A DNA stretch of 64,000 nucleotides from Deroplatys truncata. Lineage: Eukaryota > Arthropoda > Insecta > Mantodea > Mantidae. A program made the position numbers and the translations under genes. The stretch lies in NCBI GenBank assembly GCA_030765065.1, contig CM060979.1:15715001-15779000 (forward strand). Reading direction: 5' to 3'. The notes beneath the pieces are model-generated. The model did not search any database. It saw nothing but the letters and a program-made list of their open reading frames with translations, and had not been told where the DNA came from. Shown one piece after another: positions 4,804-60,998 of the stretch (its first letter is position 1; the number at the start of each line of letters is the position of its first letter).

Positions 4804-6790
4804 CATTTTTACTTTCTCCACTACGTATAGTAAGTAGAGGAAGTATTGTATTCCACCCAAAAATTCGATACCGAGATTTCACCGGAAATACATGTTTTGA
4901 GGTACCCTGAATTCAAATAAAGCAATTTTGGAAATTTAATTTATTTCTTCCTAAAAGTATTTTAAATTCTTTATGAAGTTTATTAATAATTAAATTTCAT
5001 ACAATCCCTAAAGTTGGTATTTTAATTTACTATCTTTCAAGATTGCCACACGAAGATTTTGAAGAAAAACCCCCCACCCTAGACTACCCTTTGCATAGAA
5101 CATTTTTCGAAAATTTTGATTTTCTCAAAAATGTCTAACGATATTGATTAAAATATCATATGTTTAAGATATTTTCATAGCAAATGAAATGTACATCTGG
5201 AATTTTTTGGGAATGTCTCCAAAATTATTCATCTTTATGAACGGCGTTTGCATACCTGGTAAATTGTAAGAGACAGACAACATTTTTATACACAAAACAT
5301 GTGGATCTTGTTAAAATACACAATTTATGTCATACATATATTACTTTCTCTACTACGTATAGTAAGTAGGGGAAGTATTGTATTCCACCCAAAAATTCGA
5401 TACCCAGATTTTACCGGAAATACATGTTTTGAGACCCCCTGAATCCAAAAAAGCATTTTTGGAAACATGTTCGTGTGTGTGTCTGAGAACAGCATTGCCC
5501 AGAAACGAACAGTCGGATAAACATCAAACTTGGTATTTAGGTTCAGTATCTTCCAGAGATGCGACACGAAGGTTTTCAACAAAATCCACCCACCCCAGAT
5601 TACCCTTTACATGGAACATTATTCGAAAATTTTAATTTTCTCAAAAATGGCTCTAACGATTTTGATTAACATATCATATGTTTAAGATATTTTCATGACA
5701 AATGGAATTTATATCTCGAATTTTCTGGGAATGTCTCCAAAAGAATTCTTCATTGTAAAGGACTTTTGTATAACTGGTAAACCATAAGAGATAGACAAAG
5801 TTTTACTACACAAAAAATGTAAATCGCGTTAAAATACACAATTTATATCATACACATTTTTTTGTTGAGTGAACCATTTTCGAGATATTGCTTGTTATTT
5901 CCTTAAATTTTTCAATACTTTTTCTCAAATGGGAATGCGTTATTAATTTTTTTATGTCGTGGACATACAAAGACAACGAAATGCGCCACATAGCAACCAG
6001 CTCTTAAAATATTTGACTATCGCTTAAAGCCTACCAATTCCCCTTACATCTACAAGCAAATTAGCAATAAGATTAACATCTCGATTAACATGAAGCATAT
6101 GGAGAATGAGCGTTTGTAAAAATAGTTTGTACAAGAGTAGAGAAAGTCATGTGAAGTGTAACATATCAGATTTTTGTGGAGTGAACCATTTCCGACATAT
6201 TCCTTTTTATTTCTTTGAATTTTCCAATACTTATAGTTTTTCTCATATGGGAATTCGTTATTCATTCGTTTTTTTATGTCGTGGACATACAAAGAGAATG
6301 AAATACTCCACATAGCAACCAGCTCTTAAAATATTTGACTATCGCTTAAAGTCTACCAATTCCCCTTGCACCTACAAGAAAATTAGCAATAAGATTAACA
6401 TCTCGATTAACATGAAGCATATGGAGAATGAGCGTTTGTAAAAATAGTTTGTACAAGAGTAGAGAAAGTCATGTGAAGTGTAACATATCAGATTTTTGTG
6501 GAGTGAACCATTTCCGACATATTCCTTTTTATTTCTTTGAATTTTCCAATACTTATAGTTTTTCTCATATGGGAATTCGTTATTCATTCGTTTTTTTATG
6601 TCGTGGACATACAAAGAGAATGAAATACTCCACATAGCAACCAGCTCTTAAAATATTTGACTATCGCTTAAAGCCTACCATATTCCCCTTGCACCTACAA
6701 GAAAATTAGCAATAAGATTAACATGAAGTAGATGGTGAATAAGTGTTTGTAAAATACGTTTTACAAGCGTAGACAAAGTTATGTGAGTGT
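4804..6790 (+). mobile_element. M1 nest: two heads followed by three tails
   Basis: A first M head runs from 4809 to about 5337 and is cut at 'gtcatacatat', just before the T-run that normally precedes GTTGAGTGAACC. A second, complete copy starts at 5338 and ends near 6170 (CATATCAGATTTTT). Its tail abuts GTGGAGTGAACC, so a second tail (to about 6492) and a third (to about 6790) follow. This fits one M copy inserted in the T-run of another, followed by a tandem duplication of a 322-bp tail segment. Short open frames here (for example 6050-6313 and 6372-6635) are repeated because of that duplication and are not genes. Confidence 0.75.
6002..6645 (+). repeat. 322-bp near-identical tandem duplication
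   Basis: The segment starting near 6002 recurs 322 bp downstream with only a few substitutions: the two 87-codon minus-strand frames within it differ at one residue. It covers the M tail plus the GTGGAGTGAACC block. Its near-identity marks it as one of the most recent changes in the window. Confidence 0.85.
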
Positions 6791-52929: not shown

Positions 52930-53188
52930 ACGCCATGTTCTTAAGTGTTGCTGCATCAGGTCCAGTCAGTCGATACGGTAAACAGGGTACGTTACTTTTC
53001 TGTGGAAGAATCTGCTCGTGGTGTGCGCATGAAACGTTTCCAGACTCTGTGCCACCTGTTCAAGCAAGATTCTGCAACGGCACATACGACTGCGGAACCA
53101 TTAAATGCAATCGGAGAAGCGTTTGATGACAGAATTAGTAAAGTTGATTTGTGGGTCCCGCACTCCGACTTAACGAGTTGTGATTTTT
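52930..53188 (+). pseudogene. mariner-type transposase fragment (5' part)
   Basis: Encodes LFKQDSATAHTTAEPLNAIG, FDDRISKVDLW and DLTSCDFY, matching the second and third acidic motifs (Q-D-x-A-x-A-H-T and D-L-x-x-C-D-F-Y-L-W-G) of a mariner group different from the element at 8.4 kb. The frame breaks exactly in the CDFY codons, where an M1 is inserted, and continues after it (54111-54241). Confidence 0.82.
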
Positions 53189-54110
53189 ACTTTCTCTACT
53201 ACGTATAGTAAGTAGGGGAAGTATTGTATTCCACCCAAAAATTCGATACCGAGATTTCACCGGAAATATATGTTTTGAGGCACCCTGAATCCAAAAAAGA
53301 ATTTTTGGTAACATGTCCGTGTGTGTGTCTGTGAACAGCATAGCTCACAAACGAACAGTCGGATAAACACCAAACTTGGTATTTAAGTTCAGTATCTTCA
53401 GAGATGCGACACGAAGGTTTTCAAGAAAATCCTCCCACCCCAGATTACCCTTTACATAGAACATTTTTCGAAAATTTTAATTTTCTAAAAAATGGCTACA
53501 ACGATTTTGATTAAAATATCATATATTTAAGATACTTTCATGACAAATAAAATGTATATCTTGAATTTTCTGATAATGTCTCCAAAAGTATTCTTCATTG
53601 TGAACGACTTTTGCATAACTGATAAACCATAAGAGATAGACAAAATTTTACTACACAAAAAATGTAGATCGTGTTAATACACTTTTTTGTTGAGTGAACC
53701 ATTTTCGAGATATTGCTTGTTATTCCCTTAAATTTTTCAATACTTATTTTCTCAAAGGGAATTCGTTATTCATTTTTTTGTCTTGGATATGCAAAGAGTA
53801 TTAATCTGTGGCAAAGAGAATGCTGCTGCACCTAGCAACCAGCTATTAAGAGATATGTCTATGCTTAAAGGCTACTGTATTTCTATATTGCCCTTGCAAC
53901 TACAAAATAAGGGGAACATAGTAGGCCTTAAGCGATAGTCAAATATTTTTATAACTGGTCGTTATGTGTAAAATGTAACTCTCTTTGCATGTCAAAAGAC
54001 CCTTTCTGCAAATGTTTATCTCGATTAATATGAAATAGATGCAGAATAAGAGTTTGTAAAAATAGCTTGTACAAGAGTAGAGAAAGTAATGTGAGTGTAA
54101 CATATCAGAT
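53189..54110 (+). mobile_element. Complete M1, inserted in a transposase
   Basis: Head ACTTTCTCTACTACGTATAG follows TGTGATTTTT; tail ACATATCAGATTTTT precedes ATTTGTG. 922 bp, long-tail subtype, with the private variant AAAATAGCTTGTACAAG near its end. Confidence 0.9.
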
Positions 54111-54241
54111 TTTTATTTGTGCCGTCCTTTGAAAGATAGTATATCGTTCAAATCCTAGCACACTACAGGAACGTAGAGATAGCATCGTGCAAGAAATCAC
54201 AAGAATTCCTGCTGATTAGCTTATGCGAGTGAATGACAGTG
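54111..54241 (+). pseudogene. mariner transposase C-terminus, first copy
   Basis: Continues the frame interrupted at 53188: FYLCG, LKDS, YRSNPSTLQERRDSIVQEIT then RIPAD, as expected downstream of C-D-F-Y-L-W-G in mariners. It ends at 'gaatgacagt', where the next M head begins. A second copy lies at 58714-58812. Confidence 0.82.
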
Positions 54242-54421
54242 TTACTTTCTCTACTACGTAGAGTAAGTAGGGGAAGTATTGTATTCCACCCAAAAATTCG
54301 ATACCGAGATTTCATCGGAAATACATGTTTTGAGATCCCCTGAATCCAAAAAAGCATTTTTGGAAACATGTCCGAGTGTGTCTGTGTGTCTGTCTGTCTG
54401 TCTGTGTGTGTGTCTGTGTGT

Positions 54422-54462
<41 letters not shown>

Positions 54463-54975
54463 CAGCATAACTCAGAAACGAACGGTCGGATAAACACCAA
54501 ACTTGGTATTTAGGTTCAGTATCTTCTAGAGATGCGACACGAAGGTTTTCAAGAAAATACCCCCACCCCGGATTACCCTTTACATTTTTCGAAAATTTTA
54601 ATTTTCTCAAAAATGGCTCTAACGATTTTAATTAAAATATCATATGTTTGTGATATTTTCATGACAAATAAAATGTATATCTTGAATTTTCTGGGAAAGT
54701 CTCCAAAAGTATTCTTCATTGTGAACGACTTTTGCATAACTGGTAAACCATAAGAGATAGACAAAATTTTACTACCCTTAAATTTTCCAATACTTATTTT
54801 CTCAAACGGGAATTCGTTATTCATTTTTACTTTCTCTACTACGTATAGTAAGTAGGGGAAGTATTGCATTCCACCCAAAAATTCGATACCGAGAGTTCAC
54901 CGGAAATACATGTTTTGAGACCTCCTGAATCCAAAAAAAGCATTTTTGGAAACATGTCCGTGTGTGTGTCTGTGT

Positions 54976-55028
<53 letters not shown>

Positions 55029-58000
55029 TGTGTGTCAGTGTGTCTGTGAACAGCATAACTCAAAAACGAACAGTCGGGTAAGCACCAAACTTGGTATTTA
55101 GTTTCAGTATCTTCCAGAGATGCGACACGAAGGTTTTCAAGAAAATCCCCCCACCCCAGACTCTCCTTTACATGGAAGATTTTTCGAAAATTTTAATTTT
55201 CTCAAAAATGGCTCTAACGATTTTGATGAAAATATCATATGTTTAAGATAATGTCATGAGAAATGAAATGTATATCTCGAATTTTTTGGGAATGTCTCCA
55301 AAAGTATTCTTCATTGTGAACGACTTTTGCATAACTGGTAAACCATAAGAGATAGACAAAATTTTACTACACAAAGAATGTAGATCGCGTTAAAATACAC
55401 AACTTATGTCATATACATTGCTTTTGTTGAGTGAACCGTTTTCGAGATATTGCTTGTTATTCCCTTAAATTTTCCAATATCTACTTTTTCTCAAATTCGT
55501 TATTCATTTTTACTTTCTCTACTACGTATAGTAAGTAGGGGAAGTATTGCATTCCACCCAAAAATTCGATACCGAGATTTCACCGCAAATACATGTTTTG
55601 AGACCTCCTGAATCCAAAAAAAGCATTTTTGGAAACATGTCCGTGTGTGTGTCTGTGTGTCTGTGTGTGTGTGTGTCTGTGTGTGTGTGAACAGCATAAC
55701 TCAAAAACGAACAGTCGGATAAACACCAAACTTGATATTTAGGTTCAGTGTCTTCCAGAGATGCGACACGAAGGTTTTCAAGAAAATCCCCCCACCCCAG
55801 ACTACCCTTTACATGGAACATTTTTCGAAAATTTTAATTTTCTCAAAAATGGCTCTAACGATTTTGATTAAAATATCATATGTTTAAGATAATGTCATGA
55901 GAAATGAAATGTATATCTCGAATTTTCTGGGAATGTCTCCAAAAGTATTCTTCATTGTGAACGACTTTTGCATAACTGGTAAACCATAAGAGATAGACAA
56001 AATTTTACTACACAAAAAATGTAGATCGCCTTAAAATACACAACTTATGTCATATACATTTCTTTTGTTGAGTGAACCGTTTTCGAGATATTGGTTGTTA
56101 TTCCCTTAAATTTTCCAATACTTATACTTTTTCTCAAATTCGTTATTCATTTTTTACTTTCTCTACTACGTACAGTAAGTAGGGGAAGTATTGCATTCCA
56201 CCCAAAAATTCGATACCGAGATTTCACCGGAAATACATGTTTTGAGACCTCCTGAATCCAAAAAAAGCATTTTTGGAAACATGTCCGTGTGTGTGTGTGT
56301 GTGTGTGTGTGTCTGTGTGTGTGTGTGTGTGTCTGCGTGTGTGTGTGTGTCTGTGAACAGCATAACTCAAAAACGAACAGTCGGATAAGCACCAAACTTG
56401 GTATTTAGGTTCAGTATCTTCCAGAGATGCGACACGAAGGTTTTCAAAAAAATCCCCCCACCCCAGACTACCCTTTACATGGAAGATTTTTCGAAAATTT
56501 TAAGTTTCTCAAAAATGGCTCTAACGATTTTGATGAAAATATCATATGTTTAAGATAATGTCATGAAAAATGAAATGTATATCTCGAATTTTCTGGGAAT
56601 GTCTCCAAAAGTATTCTTCATTGTGAACGACTTTTGCATAACTGGTAAACCATAAGAGATAGACAAAATATTACTACACAAAAAATGTAGATCGCGTTAA
56701 AATACACAACTTATGTCATATACATTTCTTTTGTTGAGTGAACCGTTTTCGAGATATTGCTTGTTATTTCCTTAAATTTTCCAATACTTATACTTTTTCT
56801 CAAATTCGTTATTCATTTTTTACTTTCTCTACTACGTACAGTAAGTAGGGGAAGTATTGCATTCCACCCAAAAATTCGATACCGAGATTTCACCGGAAAT
56901 ACATGTTTTGAGACCTCCTGAATCCAAAAAAAGCATTTTTGGAAACATGTCCGTGCGTGTGTCTGTGTGTGTGTGTGTCTGTGTGTCTGTGTGTGTGTGA
57001 ACAGCATAACTCAAAAACGAACAGTCGGATAAACACCAAACTTGGTATTTAGGTTCAGTATCTTCCAGAGATGCGACACGAAGGTTTTCAAGAAAATCCC
57101 CCCACCCCAGACTACCCTTTACATGGAACAATTTTCGAAAATTTTAATTTTCTCAAAAATGGCTCTAACGATTTTGATGAAAATATCATATGTTTAAGAT
57201 AATATCATGAGAAATGAAATGTATATCTCGAATTTTCTGGGAATGTCTCCAAAAGTATTCTTCATTCTGAACGACTTTTGCATAACTGGTAAACTATAAG
57301 AGATAGACAAAATTTTACTACACAAAAAATATAGATCGCGTTAAAATACACAACTTATGTCATATACATTTCTTTTGTTGAGTGAACCGTTTTCGAGATA
57401 TTGCTTGTTATTTCCTTAAATTTTGCAATACTTATACTTTTTCTCAAATTCGTTATTCATTTTTTTATGTCCTGGACATGCAAAGAGAATGGAATGCGCC
57501 ACATAGCAACCAGCGTTAAAATATTTGACTATCGCTTAAAAGCTACCATATTCCGCTTGCATCTACAAGAAAATTACCAATAAGATTGACATTTCGATAT
57601 CTCGATTAACATGAAGCATATGGAGAATAGGCGTTTGTAAAATTAGATTGTACAAGAGTAGAGAAAGTCATGTGAGTGTAACACATCAGATTTTTTTATG
57701 TCCTGGACATGCAAAGAGAATGGAATGCGCCACATAGCAACCAGCGTTAAAATATTTGACTATCGCTTAAAACCTACCATATTCCCCTTGCATCTACAAG
57801 AAAATTACCAATAAGATTGACAACTCGATATCTCGATTAACATGAAGCATATGGAGAATAGGCGTTTGTAAAATTAGGTTGTACAAGAGTAGAGAAAGTC
57901 ATGTGAGTGTAACACATCAGATTTTTTATGTCTTGGACTTGCAAAGAGAATGGAATGCGCCGCATAGCAACCAGCGTTAAAATATTTGACTATCGCTTAA

Positions 58001-58713
58001 AAGCTACCATATTCCCCTTTCATCTACATGAAAATTACCAATAAGATTGACATCTCGATATCTCGATTAACATGAAGCATATGGAGAATAGGCGTTTGTA
58101 AAAATAGATTGTACAAGAGTAGAGAAAGTCATGTGAGTGTAACACATCAGAATTTTTTTTTAGTCCTGGACATGCAAAGAGAATGGAATGCGCCACATAG
58201 CAACCAGCGTTAAAATATTTGACTATCGCTTAAAAGCTACCATATTTCCCTTGCATCTACAAGAAAATTAGCAATAAGATTGACATCTCGATATCTCGAT
58301 TAACATAAAGCATATGGAGAATAGGTGTTTGTAAAAATAGTTTGTACAAGAGTAGAGAAAGTCATGTGAGTGTAACACATCCGATTTTTTTGTCTTGGAT
58401 ATGCAAAGAGAGTGGCAACGAGAATGGTGCTGCACCTAGCAACCAGCTATTAAGAGATATGTATGTGCTTAAAGGCTACTGTATTTCTATATTGCCCTTG
58501 CAATTACAAAACAAGGGGAACATAGTAGGCCTTAAGCGATAGTCAAATATTTTAGAACGGGTCGCTATGTGTAAAATGTAATTCTCTTTGCATGTCAAAA
58601 GATCGTTTCTGCAAATGTTTATCTCGATTAATATGAAGTAGATGGAGAATAAGAGTTTGTAAAAATAGCTTGTACAAGAGTAGAGAAAGTCATGTGAGTG
58701 TAACACATCAGAT
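54242..58713 (+). mobile_element. Five-deep nest of M1: five heads, then five tails
   Basis: Heads begin at 54242, 54829, 55511, 56156 and 56821. The first four stop at the same internal site, TTATTCATTTTT. After the fifth head, tails end in order at about 57692, 57921, 58152, 58384 and 58713. Tails 2-5 restart right after that site (TATGTCCTGG, TCTTGG). The outermost head and last tail are both the long-tail subtype, while the inner ones are all the short subtype with CAACCAGCGTTAAAATATTT. This is what stepwise insertion of M into M predicts. Confidence 0.85.
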
Positions 58714-58812
58714 TTTTATTTGTGGGGTCCTTTGAAAGATAGTGTATCGTTCAAATCCTGGCAAGAAATCACAAGAATTCCTGCTGATTAGCTTAGGCGA
58801 GGGAATGACAGT
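58714..58812 (+). pseudogene. mariner transposase C-terminus, duplicated copy
   Basis: Repeats 54111-54241 (TTTGTGGGGTCCTTTGAAAG to GAATGACAGT) but lacks about 30 bp between two GCA triplets. It then continues into ATTTTTAGAAGG, perhaps the original flank. Confidence 0.85.
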
Positions 58813-59245
58813 ATTTTTAGAAGGTATGATGCTTATAAATTAATACGTAACGACTCACTTTAATTTATAATGTGATAACATCATAATTAACAACGCTTCT
58901 GTCCATTATAATAAGGAATGATGCTTTTCTGAGGACAGAAACTCAACATTTCAAGCGTGTACTATGACATAAGGATGTTTATTGCGCATCGTGGAAGATG
59001 AAATTAGGCCCCAGGCTACAAAATTTTACGCCAGTTTACCAAACCATCAGAGTATCCTGGTCAGATCGCTTGGGGACTACAACCCTAGAACTCGCCGTCT
59101 ACGGCGTCATCGTGTTCCCCGCATGGCATGTGGGCACACCAGATAACCAAGGAGTTACACTAACAGCAGCTAAAGCTGAACTCCATAGTAATCCTACCCA
59201 AGAGATGATTGGTCTCAAAATTCAATCCTAACTAAAGAAATTGAT

Positions 59246-60029: not shown

Positions 60030-60998
60030 TGTCTTTCTCTTCTTTCTCTTCTCGTACTTTCCTCTTCTTTTCTATACACTTCCCGTCTATTTTCTTTTCA
60101 TCTCTTCTCTTTTCTTTCTTTCCTTCCTTCTTTACTTTGTCTTCCCTCTTCTTGTCCTTTATTCCTGTCTCCTCTATTTCTTCTCTCTCTCTTCTCTTCC
60201 TTTCGTCTTGTTTTCTCTTCTCTTGTCCTCTTTTCCTTTCATCTTCTCTTCCCTTCTCTTTTTTTCCGTCTTCTTTTGCTGCACTTCCCTTACCTTTTCT
60301 TCTCCTTTCATTCTTTTCTTTGCTCCCCTCTTCTGTTCTCTTCTCATGTTTTCCCCTTATTTTTCTCTTCCTTCACTTTAGTCTTGTCTTCGTTTCTCTA
60401 CTCTTTCTTCTCTTTCATTTATTCTCTCCTCTTCTTTTTCCGTCCTTCTCTTCTCTTCCTCTTCTCTACCCTTCTCTCCTATCCTCTCATCTCTTATCTT
60501 CTCCACTTATCTCTTCTCTTCTATTCCCTTCACTCCCCTCCCCTGTTCTTCTCTTTCCTTCACTATCCTTGTCTTCTCACCTTTTCTCTCGTCACTTCTC
60601 TTCTCTTGTCTCCATTTTTCTCTTCTTCTCTTCTCTTACTTCTCCTTCCTACTCTCTTCTACTCCTCTCATCTCTTCCCTTTCCTTCTCTTCTCTCCCCT
60701 TCTCCCCCTTCTTTTCTCTTCTGTTCCCTTCTCTCCCATTCTCTTCTCTTACCAACTCTTCTCTTCCCTTGGCTTCTCTCCCTTCACTTCTCATCTCCCG
60801 TATTCTCTTCTTTTCGCTTAGCTTCTCTTCTCCCCCCTTCTCGCTTCGCTTCCCTTCTCCTCTCTCCTATTCTCTTCTTTCCTCTCCCATTCTCCTGTGT
60901 CACACTCTCTTCTCTCCTTCTCTTTTCTTCTCTTCTCTTCCCTTATCTTTGCTCCCTTCTCTTCTCATCTCTCCCATTCTTTTCTCTGCTCTCTTCGC
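60030..60998 (+). repeat. About 970 bp of nearly pure pyrimidine (TTCTC-type)
   Basis: Almost only C and T on the plus strand, built from degenerate TTCTC/TCTCC/CTTC units without a fixed period. Open frames of up to 351 codons (59957-61012) cross it in several frames, encoding only S/L/F/P-rich repeats. Such tracts avoid stop codons in pyrimidine frames, so these are not genes. Confidence 0.95.

Follow-up and report, generated by a model that had tools for sequence, protein, structure and literature searches.

The 64,000-nucleotide stretch of the Deroplatys truncata genome analyzed here (the window) lies on contig CM060979.1 (C5) of an assembly of 4.29 Gb in 818 contigs. Its 54242-58714 part is occupied by pieces of a repeated element of ~0.9 kb, called M, which the sequence evidence places most convincingly among the non-autonomous Helentrons (HINEs). 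Each piece is a head (H) or a tail (T) of M, and direct reading together with BLAST gave the order H1-H2-H3-H4-H5-T1-T2-T3-T4-T5 on the plus strand. We consider it highly probable that this array is a nest, built by repeated self-insertion of M at its internal run of seven Ts (T7) to a depth of five levels.

The boundaries of the units were taken from BLAST and direct reading, the ACTTTC start of the element lying ~2 bases inside the BLAST boundary. The outermost head, H1 (54242-54826), is followed by H2 (54827-55509), H3 (55510-56153), H4 (56154-56819), and the innermost H5 (56820-57462), all starts being those of BLAST. The first four heads end at one T-run (TTATTCATTTTT), and the head-head junctions at 54815, 55498, 56141, and 56807 read CGTTATTCA, then 5, 5, 6, and 6 Ts, respectively, then ACTTTCTC (the T-run at the junction of H1 and H2 occupies 54824-54828). 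H5 is uninterrupted, as its head-tail junction at 57451 reads CGTTATTCA-T7-ATGTC, and this T7 (57460-57466) constitutes an unfilled target site. The tails resume after the T-run at which the heads stop: T1 (57463-57691), T2 (57692-57921), T3 (57922-58154), T4 (58155-58386), and T5 (58387-58714), the last terminating with AGTAGAGAAAGT and CACATCAGA. Those following T1 resume at T-runs of 7, 6, 9, and 7, which are preceded by the CATC[AC]GA tail end. Read as brackets, H5 is closed by T1, H4 by T2, H3 by T3, H2 by T4, and H1 by T5.

The outer pair belongs to a separate subtype. H1 differs by 6.4-8.0% from H2-H5, which are 2.0-3.4% apart among themselves, while T5 is a long tail of 324 bp that differs by 23.1-23.6% from T1-T4, whose mutual divergence is 2.2-5.7%. 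The same long-tail subtype is represented by a solitary M (head plus long tail, identified by BLAST) at 53187-54111, which is not nested. Thus, the original prediction for this locus, made from the letters of the window, was right about the equal numbers of heads and tails and about the deviating subtype of the outermost pair; its statement that every head is cut at the T-run applies to four of the five and fails for H5. A flanking sequence of ~100-130 bp, X, is found 3′ of both the solitary M (X1, 54112-54241) and the outer element of the nest (X2, 58715-58813), and its presence in the two segments 53187-54241 and 54242-58813, which the original prediction did not mention, may reflect either a local duplication or 3′ read-through.

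Bracket pairing in the window and in other arrays

Nests of other depths, which the original prediction had proposed to look for, were found at the same site elsewhere in the genome. Loci were chosen in two ways. A tail-array query, for which the best 40 of 4,068 candidates were scored, listed 41 matches including the window; L009-L028 are the next 20 by rank, and L001-L008 were left out of all counts because they overlap with L009-L028 or the window. Another eight loci were taken in list order from the head-head junctions of contig C1, skipping the mirror clusters at 13.83 and 13.84 Mb, of which only 1.3 kb was read (L058). Among the 26 arrays of at least four units in L009-L028 and the window, 11 were balanced in bracket order and 2 were cut at one end. 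The balanced ones include HHHTTT in L016, L018, L019, L023, and L026 (the first head is 5′-truncated in L018 and L019), HHHHTTTT in L013, HHHTHTTT in L017, and a balanced word with side branches, HHHHTHHTTHTTTT, in L011. Five of the eight loci chosen by head-head junctions were also balanced: L049, L050, L053 (outer head 5′-truncated), and L056 are HHTT, and L054 is HHHTTT. The outer head of L049 is split by another insert, which was recognized by eye (the script alone reads HTT). Bracket order was obeyed in 15 of 15 hand-picked balanced arrays, from which L027 (~HTHT) was excluded because its first head is truncated, and balanced nests were located on several chromosome-size contigs. Random order, against which this agreement could be weighed, is a weak null.

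Insertion of each M as a whole would give a head and its bracket partner a common history even when kilobases separate them. The pairwise distances of heads and of tails were therefore compared using the 120 heads and 125 short tails that were available in full (long tails were excluded). For bracket partners (86 pairs in 32 arrays) the correlation was r = 0.652, and shuffling of the tails within arrays gave a mean of 0.394 (standard deviation, SD, 0.147), none of 1000 shuffles reaching the observed value. The non-adjacent pairs, which remain when the innermost ones are excluded (39 pairs in 22 arrays), correlated with r = 0.728 versus 0.625 (SD 0.052) for shuffles, again with 0 of 1000 reaching it. 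With the window omitted, the observed value was reached by 0 of 1000 shuffles when all pairs were used and by 1 of 1000 when only the non-adjacent ones were. Pairing of heads and tails in first-in-first-out order gave r = 0.112 (85 pairs). An earlier run on fewer loci had yielded r = 0.497 for bracket pairs versus 0.269 (SD 0.059), with 0 of 500 shuffles. The repeated self-insertion that had been proposed for the window is thus supported by compatible histories of bracket-matched heads and tails, and the incompatible histories that were to speak against it did not appear in this test, which covered the window and the other arrays together.

A single element could also be followed through different nests. 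H3/T3 of the window differ by only 0.5%/0.4% from H2/T2 of L015 and by 0.7%/0.9% from H4/T2 of L021, each of which is a bracket pair in its own array. In these three nests the elements inside the shared one differ by 1.3-4.4% and the outer hosts by 3.0-6.0%; most simply, these sequences can be read as one young element that inserted into three hosts and then took different guests. Similarly, divergence among the HHHTTT arrays L016, L018, L019, and L023 is 0-0.3% for the innermost heads, compared with 0.7-5.9% for the middle heads. The exception is L026, the fifth HHHTTT array with a full innermost head, which is 3.3-3.7% off. Doubling of the window nest as a two-level unit, by which H2-H3 would have been copied to H4-H5, was also considered and rejected, as no such pairing is seen among the H2-H5 distances.

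Target site and number of junctions

The T-run at the head-tail boundary was used repeatedly, as the original prediction had it, but the idea of one site internal to M has to be widened, since the target looks like T-runs in general rather than a site private to M. Among 20 balanced arrays with scored flanks, at least four Ts were found on the right in 18, on the left in 15, and on both sides in 13 (manual count; six ends are approximate). Of the two T7 runs in M, the one where head and tail meet is on the plus strand; the other, which the original prediction missed, is on the minus strand at head position ~107-113 and is also targeted: heads cut at 112-113 abut an M of opposite orientation. 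This was the case for three of the six head pieces ending there (in L016, L018, and L020), and a fourth case is L013, where the opposite M is visible in the overlapping stretch L006. Runs of at least seven Ts number ~5.5 million on the two strands of the genome (scaled from the window). Their abundance and the use of the opposite-strand T7 weaken the candidate of an M-specific target. The strand of the internal T-run accounts for the uniform orientation within a nest, and homing specific to M is not required. Within the window nest, 5-6 Ts are present on the left and 6-9 on the right; among the matches listed, a T7 run mostly became 5+7 Ts after insertion, which fits Ts borne by the element and a duplication of five Ts alike. 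Helentrons and HINEs are expected to leave no target site duplication.

The junctions were counted in the whole genome by exact patterns, with the reversed pattern as control. Head starts numbered 213,461 (control 6) and head-head junctions 17,358 (control 0), that is, 8.1% of the head starts. The other junctions, all with a control of 0, were head-short tail (35,856), head-long tail (33,871), tail-short tail (8,226), tail-long tail (3,943), and tail-head (5,946). On annotated junctions the exact patterns detected 40/50 head-head, 16/53 head-tail, 3/10 head-long tail, 22/55 tail-tail, 0/6 tail-long tail, and 10/16 tail-head cases; because of these differences, each count is a minimum, and the shortfall varies between junction types. 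Even so, 17,358 head-head junctions against none for the reversed control indicate that the nest pattern is not a product of chance. The impression that head-head junctions exceed tail-tail ones genome-wide, and hence that heads outnumber tails, was dropped owing to the unequal sensitivity: 17,358 head-head versus 8,226 plus 3,943 tail-tail junctions are compatible with rough equality given the detection rates of 40/50, 22/55, and 0/6.

Some M pieces are multiplied in other ways. Near the end of contig C1 (20305-122593), at least 31 head-tail junctions recur with a period of ~3,408 bp, forming a long tandem satellite whose units each contain an M, and at 19823780-19832172 of the same contig an M-containing unit is tandemly repeated in four copies with a period of 2,481 bp, including tail-head, head-tail, and head-long tail junctions. 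At 5859-6724 of the window, a 322-bp unit (~92 bp of a head end plus one tail) is present in 2.7 tandem copies; this M was seemingly enlarged by tandem repeat and not by nesting. Mirror pairs of head-head junctions in opposite orientation occur on C1 at 13833730-13843088, 22028066-22033265, and 26123577-26132958, with junctions 443 or 451 bp apart and pair members 4-9 kb from each other, as in some palindromic or inverted-repeat element with shortened M heads. L058 contains successive heads, one of which has an internal deletion.

M and the two-headed Helentrons

The assignment of M rests on its ends, its microsatellite, its T-run targets, and its lack of coding capacity. Its subterminal inverted repeats, ACTTTCTCTACT and AGTAGAGAAAGT, are 12 bp long, the 3′ repeat lying ~22 nt from the end, and in Helentrons of the same genome the 3′ end GTGTAGAGAAAGT pairs with ACTTTCTCTAC over 11 bp (by eye); M and a Helentron of the same genome thus have in common subterminal inverted repeats no shorter than 11 bp. 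The 3′ palindrome is ATGTG-AGTGTAA-CACAT in M and ATGTG-AATGTAA-CACAT in the four examined Helentrons. M contains a GT microsatellite, and it is inserted in T-rich sequence with a varying number of Ts. By the length of open reading frames (ORFs) M has no coding capacity: only three ORFs of at least 100 amino acids are present in the nest, all on the minus strand, 101-118 amino acids long and situated around the first head, two of them running across the GT tract (the nest ORFs were not searched against protein families). Outside the nest, at 60035-60992 of the window, a degenerate pyrimidine-rich tract (TTCTC-like) opens a 351-amino-acid frame, which is probably no gene.

A genome search with PF14214, in which the best 150 of 291 candidates were scored, gave at least 152 matches, and 18 of these lie in frames of 2,100 amino acids or more that contain no stop codon. 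In one Helentron copy that was scanned with Pfam, a single stop-free frame of 2,324 codons contains Helitron_like_N, DUF6570, PIF1, and Exo_endo_phos_2. PF14214 and PIF1 were matched at E values of 5.2e-28 and 5.2e-29, respectively, while the C-terminal Exo_endo_phos_2 match (E 3.4e-5, 24.1 bits) falls short of the curated cut-off (27.4), which leaves the endonuclease assignment weak. With this reservation, the scanned copy unites Rep, helicase, and endonuclease in one protein, like a Helentron, an autonomous element of the Helitron2 group that carries an endonuclease. The N-terminal part of the Helentron protein (residues 46-191; L041:2193-5999) also matches Herpes_teg_N (36.9 bits), which we take to be a cysteine-protease-type domain.

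Homology among the four Helentron copies examined ends, on the 3′ side, with an M-type terminus followed by Ts, and the terminal 33-35 bp are shared with M at 94% identity. At the 5′ side, the homology among the three copies whose border was in the sample begins at the M head, and the fourth, C9, was sampled from within its outer head (the last 253 bases of it). In each of the four, two heads precede the coding part and meet at an identical TTATTCA-T4-ACTTTC junction, and the copies are 98.2-99.7% alike across the compared 5′ stretches; copy C4 is located in the head-tail site of an M. It is these two heads on the 5′ side that set the four copies apart from a Helentron, and they appear to be double-headed chimeras.

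The HINE/DINE-1 elements described in PMC4067079 are characterized, in the parts of that paper drawn on here, by subterminal inverted repeats, a short 3′ palindrome, a microsatellite, and T-run targets. M agrees with them in these traits, as regards the 3′ palindrome by its sequence but not by the stability of its fold, and also in the lack of a long ORF, the variable number of flanking Ts, and the presence, in the same genome, of Helentrons whose terminal motifs match, but its 3′ repeat lies ~22 nt from the end instead of the 38-60 nt of mite families; the same parts mention clusters and tandem arrays, not deep same-site nests like those of M. Self-insertion is known from Fusarium Helitrons, for which a chimera extending from the outer 5′ end to the first 3′ end has been proposed (PMC5148889), and related multi-terminus Helitrons of maize were, as far as the source was drawn on, likewise suggested to form chimeras (PMC3288121). 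The elements studied here resemble both in self-insertion and in having several 5′ termini with one 3′ terminus, and the two-headed Helentrons fit the Fusarium model. The difference is in scale: the consulted part of PMC5148889 gives one nested example, and duplicated 5′ ends of typically <200 bp, versus a nest of five levels in this genome, where full head-head junctions at one T-run number thousands. SaTar arrays, as presented in the portion of PMC5907723 used, are also formed by small elements targeting simple sequence, but are uniformly non-nested, unlike the M arrays. The Helitron Helraiser is reported to use a 3′ hairpin as terminator (PMC5876387). In the open-access literature, to which the search was limited with subscription papers outside its scope, no description of multi-level same-site HINE or Helentron nests was found. 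Self-insertion itself is known; what makes this case a notable variant is how deep the nest is, how many junctions exist, and the occurrence of two-headed Helentrons.

Origin of the nests and their significance

Several observations weigh against nesting or against the classification of M. The equal counts, taken by the original prediction as a signature of self-insertion, hold in the window but are not a rule, because arrays with an excess of heads or tails and with T-run or non-M flanks exist. Spare tails were seen in 9 of the 26 tail-chosen arrays, found as these were by a tail query (L012 is included with its trailing head fragment disregarded), and spare heads in four, two of which run off the sampled stretch; three of the eight loci chosen by head-head junctions also have spare heads (L052, HHHTT; L055, HHT; L051, HTHHT with a head end in front). 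A further tail follows the L013 nest after 30 bp, and the laxer joining used in the bracket test turned L013 into an array with a fifth tail. The expected gradient toward older outer units, judged by nearest-neighbour distance, is weak, since within-array permutations reached the observed value in 17 of 2000 cases for heads and 176 of 2000 for tails. The 3′ hairpin of M is no more stable than shuffled sequences (z -0.27), and the last 60 bp of T1-T5 are only 68-71% identical to the four Helentron ends; thus, by the subfamily rule of PMC4067079, M and these Helentrons are partners by their ends at the family level, and, judging from the sequences, an autonomous relative closer to M than the examined Helentrons may exist. 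The value for the solitary M at 53187 (54%) was set aside because of a misplaced end. The nest was, moreover, read from assembled sequence, no empty allele of it was seen, and the region is rich in repeats and GT tracts, as would suit an assembly artefact. We find an artefact hardly credible, however, because the units differ (heads by 2-8%, tails by 2-24%), balanced nests lie on several chromosome-size contigs, and the junctions number thousands.

The alternative named in the original prediction, that separate tandem duplications of heads and of tails, through unequal crossing-over, enlarged the array and that the equal counts are coincidental, would agree with the similarity and tandem arrangement of neighbouring units and with unbalanced arrays having T-run flanks, such as L025 (HTTT) and L024 (HHTTT). 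Yet the bracket-wise correlation exceeded all 1000 shuffles, for non-adjacent pairs too, strings such as HHHTHTTT and HHHHTHHTTHTTTT are not obtainable from separate runs of heads and tails alone, and element 3 of the window recurs elsewhere as a head-tail bracket pair, so this explanation is very unlikely. That some levels arrived jointly, by transposition of a ready-made two- or three-level nest or of a two-headed chimera as one unit, is improbable, although the four Helentrons with their identical junction provide a precedent, L055 is a head-head-tail unit between T-runs, H4 of the window and H3 of L015 are just 1.3% apart (their tails 3.9%), and the consulted parts of the Fusarium and maize studies propose such chimeras (PMC5148889, PMC3288121); against it, L015 and L021 have other elements within and around the shared element 3 than the window, and the H2-H5 distances form no two-by-two pattern. 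Later homologous recombination between repeated heads or tails is compatible with insertion as the maker of nests: it would add or remove units and thereby produce unbalanced arrays. We hold such a contribution to be quite possible, if short of something to be presumed. It could account for the arrays with spare heads or spare tails and for the internally deleted head of L058, but it is unnecessary for the balanced array of the window, and chimeric transposition explains the spare heads equally well.

In the mechanism that we favor, repeated self-insertion, M inserts into T-runs in a fixed orientation. Each copy bears T7 at its head-tail boundary, where an insertion splits it into a head and a tail, and the incoming M supplies a fresh T7 for the next one. 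In the window, an M of the long-tail subtype presumably took the first M in its T7 run, and the process was repeated to five levels, probably strictly one at a time, with relative ages following that order. The transposase may be supplied by the examined Helentrons or their relatives, and replication from an outer head to the first tail could yield the double-headed chimeras.

A wider interpretation, which we put forward tentatively and consider doubtful, is that the T7 run inside M serves as a landing pad of its own, which draws new copies into old ones and spares host DNA. Since, on this interpretation, any head can serve as the start of transposition and the first tail ends it, the nests would breed chimeras, and the recently spreading two-headed Helentron would be a chimera that took over the 5′ end of an abundant non-autonomous family by way of a nest. 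The internal T7 site may then be kept by selection. In the literature drawn on here, self-insertion of rolling-circle elements has so far rested on few examples, while this one genome offers thousands of head-head junctions at one T-run. Arrays that can be read as strings of brackets are a natural record of the start and stop rules of Helentrons, of insertion order, and of the birth of chimeras, and the nests, common as they are in this genome, may reveal how a rolling-circle family starts, stops, and recombines.

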